64,000 nt of DNA from Methanococci archaeon (GTDB lineage: Archaea > AGJL01 > Methanococci > Methanococcales > Methanocaldococcaceae). Where the stretch lies: positions 1-64,000 of the forward strand of contig JAADDS010000074.1 of assembly GCA_013153845.1 (NCBI GenBank), in the 5' to 3' direction. Position 1 is the stretch's first letter. Every line of letters begins with the position of its first letter. Under the pieces are notes generated by a model that saw nothing but the letters and a program-made list of their open reading frames with translations, did not search any database and was not told the DNA's origin. The position numbers and the translations under genes were made by a program. This document shows, piece by piece, positions 58,712-64,000 of the stretch.

Positions 58712-61690
58712 ATGGAAAGATTTATAGAAAATCCAAAGTTTCCGATAAGAGAGATTAACGAGAAGAGTGGGAAGGAGAAAGGGGCAGCAAGACCTCCATA
58801 CTGGGAGATGGTATTTTATTGGACGAGAAAGCCATTGATTGGAGCAAGAGGGGTTATTGCCGGCTCTCTATTGCCTTATGATATTGATTTAGAGAGGTTT
58901 AAAAATGCAATATGCCTTGATGAAAAAACTCCCCACAGAGTAAATCCAAGAATTCCAAGTGATTGGAAGAAGTATTTTGAAGGAAAAAAGTTATTAGATC
59001 CGTTTGCTGGCTTTGGCTCTATACCTTTGGAGGGCTTGAGGTTGGGCTTAGATGTTACAGCAGTTGAGTTATTGCCTACAAGTAATGTATTTTTAAAGGC
59101 AGTTTTAGAGTATCCTAAAGAGTTTGGCAGGATTTTAGTTAAAGATGTTGAGAAGTGGGGGAATTGGATAACTGAACGTCTTAAAGAGGATGAAGATATT
59201 AGAGAGCTTTATGAGGATGATGTTGCTGTGTATATTGGAACTTGGGAGATAAAATGCCCTCACTGTGGTAAGTGGATTCCTTTAATAGGTAATTATTGGT
59301 TAGCGAGAGTTAAGGATAATAAAAAGGGATATAAAAGATTGGCTTTTATGAAGGCAGTTAAAACAGAGGATGGCATTGATATAGAGGTTGTTGATGTTAA
59401 TAAAATAGCTAAGGAGAATAATTTAAGCTTAGAAAATGCAAAGGTTGATAAGAATAAAATAAAGATTGATAAGTTAGAGTTTGAAGTGCCAAATGCCAAT
59501 ATTGAATCAAGGAAGAGCCAAGTAACTTGTTTGTTTTGTGGGAATTTAATAAAATTTGCAGATGAAGAAGGAAATCATTATTTAAATAAGGTTAAAGGCA
59601 AGGACTTAGAGTTCTATGTAAAATTTGCTTTAAAGAAATATCATGAAGGAGATGAGAGATTTGCAAGGCAGAGATTGTTGGTTAAAGTTAAAATTGAAGA
59701 TGGAGATTTGATTTTTGAAAAAGCTACCTTAGAAGATAATAAAAAATTGGAGATTGCTAAGGAGAAGGTTAAAAAGCTTATAGAAAGTGGAGATGTTGAT
59801 GTGCCAAATGAACCAATACCTCCTTATGGAAATATGGGAGGAGGAGGGCATTTTTTACCTTTAAATTATGGGATGGATAAGTGGTATATGCTTTTTAACC
59901 CAAGGCAGTTATTAACTTTGATAAAAATTACAAGATTGATTAGAGAAGTTGGAAAAAAGGTTGAAGAGGAGAAACTTAAAGAGGACTGGAGTGAGGAGAA
60001 AGCTTTTAAGTATTCAGAGGCAATTGCTACTTATTTGAGTATTGCTTTGTGTAAATTTGCTGATTATAACTCTTGTGTCTCTGTTTGGAATCAATCATTA
60101 ATTATGGGGCATACTCTAAATTTCAGAGGAATTTCAATGGTTTGGAATTTTTGGGAATCTAATCCCTTTACAAAATGGACTGGTTCTTGGACACAAGGAT
60201 ATACTTACACTCTTCCAAAATCATTGGAATATCTAACCTCTGCACTTTCAAATAAACCAAATAACTTAGATGATTATTTCAATAAAATCAATAATAACTC
60301 CTCAAACATAAAAATCATTCAAGGAGATGCAACCTCGTTAAACTTAGGAGAACAGTTTGATATTATCGTTACCGACCCTCCCTATGCCGATGATGTCCCT
60401 TACACAGAATTATCTGACTTTTATTATGTTTGGCTTAGAAGGGCTTTATCTGATGTTGAAAACAATAAATTAATCCCAAGATACCATAAAGATGCATTCT
60501 TTAAAAGAATTGGTAAGAAATACAAAGAGATAAAAACCCAATGGCAGGACTTTGCTAAAAAAGAGGTTTCTGAAAAATATGGTAGATTTATGGATTTAGA
60601 GAACAAAAAAGAAATAGCAAAGCAACACTTTGAAAATCTCTTCTCACAGGCATTCATATCTATGAAAAACCACTTAAAAGATGATGGTTTGTTAGTTACC
60701 TACTATGCACACACAAACCCAGAATCATGGGCAAATCTCTTAGAAGCGGGATGGAAGAGGGCAAAACTGACCATAACAAGAGCATTACCATTAACAACAG
60801 AATCAAAAACAAACGTTATATCAAGAGGCAAACTCTCCTTAGACACTTCAATAATTGCTGTCTGGAAAAAGAAAACTCTAAAAGATAAGGCGTTAATCTC
60901 AACATTAATACCAAAATTAAGAGATAAAGGAAAACAAACAGCAGAACTATTAATAAAACACGGACAGCATGATTTAGATTTACTGTATGGAGTAATGGCT
61001 GGTATCTTAGAAGAGATAACCCAATACAATGAAATTGTAAGTCCAGAAGGAAAATTAACAACAAAAGACATCCTCGATAAGTATGTCTATCCATTAACAA
61101 TATACAGCATCATAGATGCCATTTCAAAAGAAAAAGAAGGAACTTTAAAAATCACTTCAAAACCAGCCCTATTCTATACAACTTATAAAATCCTATTTGG
61201 AAATAAAACCTTAGGTAGTGGTGATTTAATATTGCTAAATATCTCAACTGGTATTGATGCAAAAACAGCAGTTGAATACAAACTAATAAAAGAAGATGGT
61301 AAAGGATTTACCTTAAACTCTCCAGACCTAATAAAAGAACTCAACAACAAACATCTACAGCAGTTTTTAATTGAAAAGAACATAAACCCAACAAATCCAG
61401 AAATAAAAACATCAATAGACATCCTCCACTTACTTGAATACTATGCCTTTGCTTATCCAATAGATGCCTTTAAATCAAAACTTGATGAGTTAAAAGATAA
61501 ACACCCAACAGAAACCGAAGAGGCAATAAATATTGCCAAACTAATAAACAAATACTATGAAAGCGTATTTAAGGAAATATATGCAGGCAAAAAAGATAGT
61601 GAAATAGATAAAATCCTACAAAAAAATAAACTATACGAAATCTATCTAATAAGAAGATTAGTAAGGTTCTTAGAGGGGAAAGCATTTTAA
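58712..61690 (+). CDS. DUF1156-type DNA methyltransferase (adenine or cytosine amino group)
   Basis: 992 residues. An N-terminal DUF1156-like region (PPYWEMVFYWTRKPLIGARGV) leads into SAM motif I LLDPFAGFGSIPLEG at residues 94-108. Two CxxC pairs follow (CPHCGKW near 180, CLFCGN near 271). The catalytic DPPYADDVPY is near 555, so the target-recognition part is inserted between motifs I and IV. The exact methylated base is not decidable. Lys codons shift from mostly AAG in the first half to mostly AAA in the second. It starts the accessory locus with a separate promoter region. Confidence 0.85.
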   Translation: MERFIENPKFPIREINEKSGKEKGAARPPYWEMVFYWTRKPLIGARGVIAGSLLPYDIDLERFKNAICLDEKTPHRVNPRIPSDWKKYFEGKKLLDPFAGFGSIPLEGLRLGLDVTAVELLPTSNVFLKAVLEYPKEFGRILVKDVEKWGNWITERLKEDEDIRELYEDDVAVYIGTWEIKCPHCGKWIPLIGNYWLARVKDNKKGYKRLAFMKAVKTEDGIDIEVVDVNKIAKENNLSLENAKVDKNKIKIDKLEFEVPNANIESRKSQVTCLFCGNLIKFADEEGNHYLNKVKGKDLEFYVKFALKKYHEGDERFARQRLLVKVKIEDGDLIFEKATLEDNKKLEIAKEKVKKLIESGDVDVPNEPIPPYGNMGGGGHFLPLNYGMDKWYMLFNPRQLLTLIKITRLIREVGKKVEEEKLKEDWSEEKAFKYSEAIATYLSIALCKFADYNSCVSVWNQSLIMGHTLNFRGISMVWNFWESNPFTKWTGSWTQGYTYTLPKSLEYLTSALSNKPNNLDDYFNKINNNSSNIKIIQGDATSLNLGEQFDIIVTDPPYADDVPYTELSDFYYVWLRRALSDVENNKLIPRYHKDAFFKRIGKKYKEIKTQWQDFAKKEVSEKYGRFMDLENKKEIAKQHFENLFSQAFISMKNHLKDDGLLVTYYAHTNPESWANLLEAGWKRAKLTITRALPLTTESKTNVISRGKLSLDTSIIAVWKKKTLKDKALISTLIPKLRDKGKQTAELLIKHGQHDLDLLYGVMAGILEEITQYNEIVSPEGKLTTKDILDKYVYPLTIYSIIDAISKEKEGTLKITSKPALFYTTYKILFGNKTLGSGDLILLNISTGIDAKTAVEYKLIKEDGKGFTLNSPDLIKELNNKHLQQFLIEKNINPTNPEIKTSIDILHLLEYYAFAYPIDAFKSKLDELKDKHPTETEEAINIAKLINKYYESVFKEIYAGKKDSEIDKILQKNKLYEIYLIRRLVRFLEGKAF

Positions 61691-61726
61691 ATAGGACTTT
61701 CGCAGAAATAAATGTTTTAAGGAAAT

Positions 61727-61742
61727 GATACTTTAAAGTATC
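61727..61742. promoter_or_regulatory. 16-bp perfect palindrome, candidate operator
   Basis: GATACTTTAAAGTATC, a perfect inverted repeat, in the 118-bp gap between the methyltransferase and the antitoxin candidate, 67 bp before ATG 61809. Position and symmetry fit an autoregulation operator for a dimeric DNA-binding protein such as the following gene's product. Function is inferred. Confidence 0.45.
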
Positions 61743-61808
61743 TAAATGCTTTATTGAATATACAAACTGCAAAAGTTCTATTAAATTTATTTTTTTTGAG
61801 GGATAAAA

Positions 61809-62396
61809 ATGTCAAATTATCTAAAGAAAATATTTGAGGACTTAGAACCAGAAGAAAAAATCATTCTCTACGCATTGGGAGCATTAAACAACACCCCCTT
61901 AAATAGCAAAATAAAACTTCATAAATTGTTATTCTTAGTTTCTAATGTATTTCCACAACTGAATAAATTACTTGAATTTGAAGAACACTTTTTAGGCCCT
62001 TACAGTGAAAAAATAAACTACATCCTTGATGATTTAATTAGTTTGGGATTGGTAGAGAAAAAAGGTGGCAAATACAAACTCACTGAAAAAGGAATGGAAA
62101 TATATAAACGATTAAAACCAAAACCAGAATTAAAAGAGGTTTTAGAAGATTTTAAAGAATTCATACATGATTTAACTGATGATGAAATATTGGCGTTTAT
62201 CTATGTTTCATACCCAAAATACACTAAAGAATCTATAAAGTGGGATGAATTGAAAAAACGAAGAGTTGATTTAGCTATCTCTCTATTAAAAAAACAAAAA
62301 GTTAGCTTTGGAAAAGCCGCACAAATAGCTGGACTATCTCCTATAGAATTTGAAGAGTTGCTTTTAAAAAGAGGGATAAAGTGGAGAGAAATATAA
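61809..62396 (+). CDS. Fused SocA/Panacea-like and UPF0175-like protein, antitoxin candidate
   Basis: 195 residues. The first ~100 (LGALNNTPLNSKIKLHKLLF, EEHFLGPYSEKINYILDDL) look like the SocA/Panacea (DUF4065-like) antitoxin module with a winged-helix part. The last ~35 (VSFGKAAQIAGLSPIEFEEL) match the UPF0175 type of HTH antitoxin. The domain fusion is inferred from motifs only. GAGGGATAAA precedes ATG 61809. Its 3' end overlaps the next gene by 16 bp, typical of a toxin-antitoxin pair. Confidence 0.65.
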   Translation: MSNYLKKIFEDLEPEEKIILYALGALNNTPLNSKIKLHKLLFLVSNVFPQLNKLLEFEEHFLGPYSEKINYILDDLISLGLVEKKGGKYKLTEKGMEIYKRLKPKPELKEVLEDFKEFIHDLTDDEILAFIYVSYPKYTKESIKWDELKKRRVDLAISLLKKQKVSFGKAAQIAGLSPIEFEELLLKRGIKWREI

Positions 62397-62959
62397 CCAC
62401 CAAAGTTCTTGATAATACAGTAATAAGTGCAGGATTAAAAGAAATAAAAACCATAAACCTCATTGAAAGATGCATAAAAAGATATAAATTAGTTACATCA
62501 AAACATGTATTTGAAGAGACATTAAAAGGTTTTTCAAATCCCATAATCAAAAATTGTTATTCAGAAATTGAAGTCCATGAAATTAATGAAGAAACGTTTA
62601 ATTTTCTTTTGGATTACTTAGAAAGGAGATTTCCATATTTACACCGAGGAGAGCTATCATCCTTCTTAGTGGCTTTATTAAAATATGCTGAAAATGGAAA
62701 ACCATATTACTATGTAACAGATGACAATAAAATGAGAAACAAAATCCCTAAAATCCTAAACGACCCAGTATTAAAATCAAAATTAAAGAATCCAATAACT
62801 CCAGAAAATTTTAACCTAACAGGGACGATTGGGCTTATTTTAAGATTAAAATATAGAGGATTAATATCAAAAGAGGAAGCCAAAAAGATTGCTGATGATT
62901 TAGAAAACAGTTCTTTTAGAGTAACTCCTGAATTACTAAAAAAATTAAGAGAGGATTGA
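62381..62959 (+). CDS. DUF3368-like PIN-domain protein, toxin candidate
   Basis: 192 residues from GTG 62381 with GAGGGA 4 bases upstream, inside the 3' end of the preceding gene. PIN-like acids are visible: VLDNTVISAG (residue ~10), HRGELSSFLVALL (~87), YVTDDNKMRNKI (~112). The C-terminal GTIGLILRLKYRGLISKEEA and SFRVTPELLKKL resemble DUF3368 proteins, which usually pair with UPF0175 antitoxins. That is exactly the neighbour here. Ribonuclease toxicity is inferred. Confidence 0.7.
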   Translation: MERNITTKVLDNTVISAGLKEIKTINLIERCIKRYKLVTSKHVFEETLKGFSNPIIKNCYSEIEVHEINEETFNFLLDYLERRFPYLHRGELSSFLVALLKYAENGKPYYYVTDDNKMRNKIPKILNDPVLKSKLKNPITPENFNLTGTIGLILRLKYRGLISKEEAKKIADDLENSSFRVTPELLKKLRED

Positions 62960-62960
62960 T

Positions 62961-64000
62961 ATGGGAAAGTTAAAAGTTCATATAAACTCTATAGATGAGA
63001 ATTTGATGTTTAGAAGCTTGGATATAAAGGTAGGTCCTAAAACAATGGCATCCACGCCAATAAAGGTTAGCCCTCCAGAATACCCAATAAGTCCTATAAA
63101 TGAGGTATATAAAAAATTTTCTATCGATAAATTGGAAAAATGCAATATTGACACATCTATAGAAACAAAGACAAACCAGGAAATAAAAAAATGCTTAGTA
63201 GCAGATAAGCTAAATATGGTGATTGTTGATTATACTTCCGATATTTTACCTAAAAAAGAACACTTAGAGGTTTTGATGGATTTACAGTATAATGGAAACG
63301 TTGTTATAACTCCAATTTTCTCTAAACTTGTAAAAACCCTCAAAGAAGAAAAGCTAAAAGATACATTCATTAAATTAACAAATCAATGCATAGAAATAGC
63401 AAATACCTTAAATAATAAAACTATTATTGGAATAATTCCTGCAAAGATGCCGAGACAATTCATTGATGATGTTATTAAAAACTATATTGATAATAATATT
63501 ATCCATTATATTATAGACCTTGATAGAAGAACTATTTCAGCAAATACTTCCTGGATTAGAAAATTATTTAGAACAATTCATGATAATGGGATTCTTAATG
63601 AAACATTGTTATATTGTGTTAATGGTGGCGAGGGTAAATTCTTAAAAAATGCTGAAGTAATTCCTGCACACGATTTTATAAATTCTGGTTTTGGAGTTGA
63701 TGTGTTAGGTTTAAAACATGTCCCTCCCCCGTTACCTCCAGAAACTTGGGCAAAATTAAAAAATATAAAGAAAGGAGAAATTTACAGAATATTTAACGAA
63801 AATACTTATGGTTATCATAGAGTAGATAAAGATTCTCTCCAAAATTTGGAATTACCACCCAACCAAAATATAATAAAACTCTATAATATAGGGAAGCAGT
63901 TTAATGAAGCTAATTATTTACAAAATCTTCTTAAAGAGGAATCAACAGTTGAGCAATATGTATCAACAAAATCACAAATGAAAGGCATAATTCCAAAAAT
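62961..64000 (+). CDS. Unrecognised protein, partial (runs off the window)
   Basis: Open frame from ATG 62961 to the window end, at least 346 residues with no stop; AGGATTGAT lies just upstream and the PIN gene ends 1 bp before. Alternating hydrophobic strands and helices, such as LNMVIVDYTSDILP, NGNVVITPIFSKL, NKTIIGIIPAKMP, HYIIDLDRRTIS, TLLYCVNGGEGKF and GFGVDVLGLKHVPPPLPPETW, suggest a TIM-barrel-like or other alpha/beta domain. I do not recognise a family. Its tight link to the PIN gene makes it part of the same locus. Confidence 0.75.
   Translation, partial: MGKLKVHINSIDENLMFRSLDIKVGPKTMASTPIKVSPPEYPISPINEVYKKFSIDKLEKCNIDTSIETKTNQEIKKCLVADKLNMVIVDYTSDILPKKEHLEVLMDLQYNGNVVITPIFSKLVKTLKEEKLKDTFIKLTNQCIEIANTLNNKTIIGIIPAKMPRQFIDDVIKNYIDNNIIHYIIDLDRRTISANTSWIRKLFRTIHDNGILNETLLYCVNGGEGKFLKNAEVIPAHDFINSGFGVDVLGLKHVPPPLPPETWAKLKNIKKGEIYRIFNENTYGYHRVDKDSLQNLELPPNQNIIKLYNIGKQFNEANYLQNLLKEESTVEQYVSTKSQMKGIIPK

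Follow-up and report, generated by a model that had tools for sequence, protein, structure and literature searches.

We describe three adjacent genes that follow the gene of a DUF1156 DNA methyltransferase at the right-hand end of a 64,000-nucleotide stretch of DNA (hereafter the window) from a Methanococci archaeon of the family Methanocaldococcaceae (contig JAADDS010000074.1, positions 1 to 64,000). They encode an antitoxin-like fusion protein, a PIN-domain nuclease and T3, a protein of an undescribed family. We consider it probable that this trio is a self-contained, three-part toxin-antitoxin-like module with an exchangeable toxin, which was inserted as a suicide backup into a methylation defence operon. 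Closely related genomes carry the same methylation genes, and T3 genes with comparable partners are found in distant archaea.

The trio as a recurrent module

The neighbourhoods of 57 T3 loci were typed with profiles, and an antitoxin-like gene was counted when it lay within 1.5 kb of T3. Such a gene accompanies T3 in 49 of the 57 loci, on the same strand in 31 and divergently in 18, and a DUF3368-type PIN gene is present at 39 loci; several of the loci without an antitoxin-like gene or PIN are contig ends or contain broken genes. Dozens of archaeal genomes repeat the arrangement, more than chance would give, and two distant archaea (G351 and G182) carry a standalone trio in the same order, with T3 45–48% identical. 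Where the loci are complete (35 loci), T3, the antitoxin-like protein and the PIN protein have strongly correlated pairwise distances (Mantel r 0.86–0.89, P 0.0005), as expected for genes travelling together, although the host phylogeny common to all three contributes to this correlation as well. A search within the genus that started from the antitoxin gave four genomes with a full-length or nearly full-length match (G000, which is the window genome, G012, G001 and G002), and T3 was adjacent in each of them.

The toxin slot is occupied by a ParE toxin at two loci (L224 and L228; E=2e-7 and 5e-10) and by a VapC-like PIN at a third (L131; E=0.0035, below Pfam's cut-off). It is characteristic of toxin-antitoxin modules that the toxin is exchanged while the antitoxin stays constant. 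They usually consist of two genes, and a conserved third gene is rare among them. T3 had been taken for an unknown effector in the original prediction, which was made from the letters of the window; it looks more like a regulator or sensor, since the antitoxin-like gene is its steady companion while the toxin varies. This places T3 on the control side, and because it accompanies the antitoxin whatever the toxin, it most likely controls the antitoxin as a regulator or sensor. A works-like comparison is offered by toxin-antitoxin-chaperone (TAC) modules, which also have three genes and in which the third protein controls the antitoxin. In contrast to these, T3 resembles no chaperone in the libraries searched, and its control of the antitoxin is a prediction.

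The two partners of T3 in the window correspond to an established toxin-antitoxin pair, UPF0175 (COG2886) and PIN, which is common in archaea (PMC2701414). The Pfam matches bear out this pairing, which had been named in the original prediction: the C-terminus of the fusion scores 45.2 bits with UPF0175, a domain of the COG2886-type helix-turn-helix (HTH) class (cut-off 27.9), and the PIN protein scores 39.6 bits with DUF3368 (cut-off 27.3). UPF0175 was found in six of eight relatives of the fusion. The PIN acids D11, E46, E91, D114 and D115 are present in the window protein and conserved in 39 relatives, and the nuclease is therefore probably active. The locus differs from the known pair in that UPF0175 is joined, as C-terminal part, to a DarG/SocA-like half in a longer antitoxin, and in that a conserved third gene, T3, follows.

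The fusion also contains a winged helix (HTH_45, 27.4 bits, cut-off 25.5) and matches PDC-M19A and DarG in PADLOC. The nearest solved relative of its N-terminal half is the DarG antitoxin domain (PDB 7yk3, profile match E=0.001), and the SocA/Panacea-like domain that had been proposed for it could not be upheld: PF13274 (DUF4065) is not above its cut-off, and one of the eight relatives matches with E=0.05. A profile match to the designed repeat protein DHR14 (5h7c) was discarded, and the single-sequence structure model of the fusion had a mean pLDDT of 54.9, too low for a fold search. Panacea (DUF4065/SocA) has been described as a promiscuous antitoxin domain partnered by many toxin types, with third genes that each occur in only a small fraction of genomes (PMC8832971). 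The fusion resembles the Panacea and DarG antitoxins in its profile similarity to the DarG domain and in the variety of its toxins; it differs from Panacea in the PF13274 score, in the fused UPF0175 domain and in its steady third gene.

Docking and insertion at methylation operons

As seen in the gene neighbourhoods, the trio docks repeatedly beside METHYLTRANSFERASES. A DUF1156 gene lies within 5 kb of T3 in eight of the 57 loci (the window, G012, G001, G124, G752, G511, G525 and G557), which represent six genera, and always on the same strand. Methyltransferase and downstream genes occur together, as the original prediction presupposed, in the window lineage and in five others. T3 is located upstream of the methyltransferase by 5 bp in G001, by 28 bp in G124 and by 7 bp each in G752, G511 and G525, with the methyltransferase frame broken up in the latter two, and the entire trio sits inside a helicase-methyltransferase-DUF499 operon in G557 and G752. 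Well-supported branches of the T3 tree force six or more changes in the association with DUF1156. By a rough estimate, which takes fewer than half of the genomes to carry roughly one DUF1156 gene each, random adjacency of DUF1156 and T3 should occur far less than once among 57 loci; defence islands raise this expectation. Other methylation systems have T3 neighbours too: an antitoxin-like gene and T3, without PIN, lie between type I hsdM and hsdS at L134, and the T3 locus at L118 follows a DISARM-like helicase-methylase pair.

The METHYLTRANSFERASE of the window belongs to a known system, the Hma or DUF499-centred BREX-related (BR) operon, which it opens as first gene. It scores 34.7 bits with Pfam DUF1156 (cut-off 24) and, in PADLOC, 1317.8 bits with MTase_II PDLC03352 and 169.6 bits with HmaB, so that the N6-methyltransferase component of Hma is present. 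The Hma system was recently reclassified among the DUF499-centred BR systems, in which PIN endoRNases are rare backup effectors (PMC12839542). SocA, Panacea and UPF0175 do not occur in the text of that paper, and the T3 trio was not found there. In the sister genome G013, the same upstream genes and a methyltransferase of 93% identity are followed by a PF01637-type ATPase and then by a DUF499 ATPase (989.7 bits), a 151-aa gene and an SNF2 helicase with a NOV_C domain, while in G011 the methyltransferase, DUF499, the 151-aa gene and the helicase are consecutive. PADLOC labels the genes of the sister operon HmaB, HmaC and HmaA/DrmD; the helicase, of 994 aa, is HmaA/DrmD-like. With Hma/BR systems, the sister genomes share the union of a DUF1156 methyltransferase, a DUF499 (HmaC-like) ATPase and an SNF2-type helicase in one operon. 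The DNA-modification defence context of the original prediction is supported. The sister genomes differ from these systems in the NOV_C domain of the helicase and in the preceding 151-aa gene of unknown family, and the window itself shows only the methyltransferase of the operon before the contig ends. The DUF499 ATPase (HmaC) was not found in the G000 assembly, which is 86.9% complete and whose contig ends in the ATPase just before it; the remaining operon genes (DUF499, helicase) would lie past the contig end.

Alignment of the window with G013 by blastn shows homology up to 2 bp past the methyltransferase stop codon; it picks up again, with 98.9% identity, 9 bp ahead of the ATPase ATG. By this alignment, the difference is a clean insertion (or loss) of approximately 2.4 kb at the methyltransferase/ATPase junction. 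The trio is absent from both G013 and G011. In G012, several frameshifts hit all three trio genes while the methyltransferase is intact (L024, L047), and the DUF499-helicase half of the operon, preceded by an ATPase fragment, is found at a distance of approximately 96 kb. This separation suggests a break of the operon at one of the ATPase copies. In G013, the methyltransferase-ATPase gap (L025:8031-8404) contains a truncated ATPase start and several short inverted repeats and resembles mobile-element remnants, exactly at the site where the window has the trio.

An alternative reading is that an ordinary archaeal PIN/UPF0175 addiction module ended up in a defence island by drift, T3 being a passenger or accessory gene and the methyltransferase a neighbour without functional link. 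Such a module would continue the established UPF0175-PIN pair (PMC2701414), and it gains from several observations that weigh against our reading. Most T3 loci have no DUF1156 neighbour, with most trios standing alone; the sister genomes G013 and G011 possess the DUF1156 operon without the trio; and the trio appears dispensable in G012, because its genes decayed there while the methyltransferase remained intact. Also against our reading, the constancy of T3 is partly built in, because the loci were gathered through T3 and only the within-genus test is free of this bias, and some antitoxin-like genes near T3 loci have no T3 of their own. However, drift predicts poorly that T3 should lie 5–28 bp upstream of the methyltransferase in five loci and that the association should have changed at least six times, and T3 is conserved alongside the antitoxin in many archaeal families and diverges in step with it. 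We consider drift of an ordinary addiction module unlikely, and a backup module that docks onto methylation operons remains our preferred interpretation.

The gene calls agree with the original prediction in that all four genes lie on the + strand in uninterrupted frames and the downstream genes are tightly spaced (table). The methyltransferase is separated by 118 bp from the fusion gene, which overlaps the PIN gene by 16 bp, and a single base pair lies between PIN and T3. Extension to the right, as had been advised, completes T3 outside the window on the 64179-bp contig (C17 of assembly G000) and brings in the gene of a PF01637-type ATPase (start 64098), within which the contig breaks. Sister genomes have near-identical copies of this ATPase family at the corresponding site, and these copies probably account for the break. 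Upstream of the methyltransferase, the window encodes a Kae1-Bud32 fusion, an F420-type hydrogenase and a fumarate-reductase-like flavoprotein, genes that point to a methanogen of the Methanocaldococcus kind. It contains two perfect palindromes of at least 16 bp, of which GATACTTTAAAGTATC, before the fusion gene, faintly hints at a possible operator. No counterpart of this palindrome is present at other T3 loci, and a conserved operator for the trio was rejected because it is not common to them.

Table. Positions of the methyltransferase, the trio and associated features in the window
Feature	Position	Strand	Basis
DUF1156 DNA methyltransferase (probably adenine), 992 aa	58712..61690	+	Pfam and PADLOC
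Inserted stretch with the trio	61691..64000 (to ~64088 on contig, ~10 bp short of the ATPase start)		blastn; absent from sister genome G013
Perfect 16-bp palindrome GATACTTTAAAGTATC	61727..61742		5' of the antitoxin-like gene
Antitoxin-like fusion, 195 aa	61809..62396	+	Pfam UPF0175 and HTH_45; PADLOC; profile match to 7yk3
PIN-domain nuclease with DUF3368 C-terminus, predicted toxin, 192 aa	62381..62959	+	Pfam DUF3368; conserved catalytic acids
T3, undescribed family, 365 aa	62961..64000, stop codon at contig position 64058	+	No family match

Three further observations concern the methylation genes. A type III-B (Cmr) CRISPR operon is situated directly 3' of the Hma-type operon in G013 (L025:16431-19001 and L049). 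A second, shorter DUF1156-like methyltransferase (G000:C6:1863-3980, L004; 705 aa, 24.6 bits) lies among housekeeping genes and seems to stand alone; G013 has a counterpart, and G011 gives a partial match. Within the methyltransferase of the window, positions 60049-60315 fail to align with the G012 orthologue while both flanks align, which suggests a switched target-recognition region.

The T3 family and its possible origin

As the original prediction had it, the third gene is unrecognised: searches of Pfam, NCBIfam, PHROGs, PADLOC and PDB sequences gave no match to T3. Relatives were found in 10 of the 394 genomes sampled around G000 (three-sequence profile), in 32 of 394 genomes from the phylum of G124 and in 18 of 398 from the phylum of G158 (nine-sequence profile for both); the latter two figures correspond to approximately 5–8% of the sampled genomes in two archaeal phyla. 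A pattern search of a genome contig collection gave no T3, whereas profile searches of genomes gave many. Neither searches of viral contigs with T3, the T3 alignment and PIN nor tblastn of two T3 proteins against phage records recovered relatives, apart from a tape-measure protein that matched marginally; a viral origin of T3 was rejected on the basis of these searches. At halophile-like loci (L055:9221-9685, L117:8506-8976 and L120:8260-8727), neither antitoxin-like gene nor PIN accompanies T3, which instead faces a conserved protein of approximately 155 aa without Pfam match, which may be an alternative partner. At L056 (G019), an apparent integrated element carries an antitoxin-like gene and T3, without PIN, beside a serine recombinase and a separate SocA/Panacea-like gene.

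T3 proteins are conserved in a G-x-K-x(3-4)-TP motif near the N-terminus and further in an A-x-D and G-x-D-x-x-G region, in Y-x-Y and in a C-terminal N...E...Y...K region. In hhalign profile comparisons, T3 is colinear with archaeal tRNA-guanine transglycosylase (TGT), a protein of similar length; the alignment spans approximately 320 columns and reaches E=2e-5 with the best sets, and the two proteins have an N-terminal G-K-x-I-x-TP hairpin and a C-terminal N-x-E-AI-EG region in common. The E-value spans 2e-5 to 9e-3 with the alignments used and is approximately 1e-3 with wider alignments, where shuffles reach 0.006. Reversed and block-shuffled profiles, unrelated families and 36 window proteins served as controls; these gave E-values of 0.02 or higher for the best sets, and the best shuffles across sets gave 0.006–0.03. 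Bacterial-type TGTs alone produced nothing against T3 in the profile comparison, none of nine T3 members matches the Pfam TGT family (PF01702), and the single-sequence structure model of T3 (mean pLDDT 40.5) was too low for a fold search. As judged from alignments that are themselves weak, T3 members do not conserve the catalytic aspartate (DSGG), the nucleophile aspartate (FD) or the zinc cysteines of TGT. The similarity is suggestive of a degenerate TGT relative, and we lean slightly towards a TGT-derived, probably non-catalytic fold.

If T3 were an active base-exchange enzyme of the TGT/DpdA type, it could mark self tRNA or DNA, with the PIN nuclease cutting unmarked targets and the fusion acting as a regulator. 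The colinear archaeal TGT profile and the two common motif regions agree with such an enzyme, but the absent catalytic residues do not, nor does an E-value that varies with the alignment and partly falls within the range of the best shuffles. In addition, DpdA of phage 9g has no match to T3, and the antitoxin-like HTH and the exchangeable toxins better suit a toxin-antitoxin module. We regard an active base-exchange enzyme as improbable and retain the TGT/DpdA likeness as a suggestion only, because the signal weakens from 2e-5 to approximately 1e-3 in wider alignments.

Proposed mechanism and implications

The original prediction had joined all four genes in one module, and its grouping of the toxin-antitoxin pair with the unrecognised gene holds, as the three recur together in archaea. 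A single dedicated methyltransferase-guard system of four genes is very improbable and was rejected, however co-directional, tightly packed and recurrent beside DUF1156 these genes are, because methyltransferase and trio are distributed separately: the former occurs with DUF499 and helicase but without the trio in G013 and G011, and the latter without the methyltransferase in most genomes. For the trio as a toxin-antitoxin-like module with a third component, we propose the following hypothetical mechanism, in which (i) the PIN nuclease, as the toxin, would cut RNA; (ii) the fusion antitoxin, with its DarG/SocA-like winged-helix half and its UPF0175 HTH half, would bind PIN and, at the module's own promoter, repress the operon; (iii) T3 would stabilise or gate the antitoxin and sense a nucleic-acid state or an infection signal; (iv) loss of this control would free PIN, leading to RNA cleavage and to a halt of the cell. 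Within a methylation defence operon, the module would serve as a backup when a virus defeats restriction, and it appears to have been inserted for this role into the Hma/DUF499-centred operon, as in several other archaeal lineages. Gene content, insertion, recurrence, the common history of the parts, toxin exchange and repeated docking beside DUF1156 are seen in the sequences themselves, whereas we infer the toxicity, its neutralisation, the sensing and the coupling to the methyltransferase.

A more far-reaching and tentative possibility is that T3 is the first member of a new class of proteins that control toxin-antitoxin modules; it might be a transglycosylase relative that has lost catalysis and reads the modification state of nucleic acids. 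T3 and the antitoxin would then be a fixed unit that takes PIN, VapC-like or ParE toxins, and archaea would plug this unit into DNA-methylation operons, which would become suicidal when modification or restriction is subverted.

The Hma/BR operon, the UPF0175-PIN pair and promiscuous antitoxins of the SocA/DarG type are already known. The T3 family, its fused antitoxin and the repeated docking beside DUF1156 genes were not found described in the libraries and literature searched, a scope that leaves out preprints and most subscription papers. T3 is a third protein kept across many archaeal families, present in none of the family libraries searched and often located a few bases upstream of a defence methyltransferase. 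This makes it a concrete candidate for the wiring of suicide effectors to restriction-like immunity in archaea and provides a testable annotation for a gene family that occurs in roughly one in twenty to one in twelve of the sampled genomes of two archaeal phyla.

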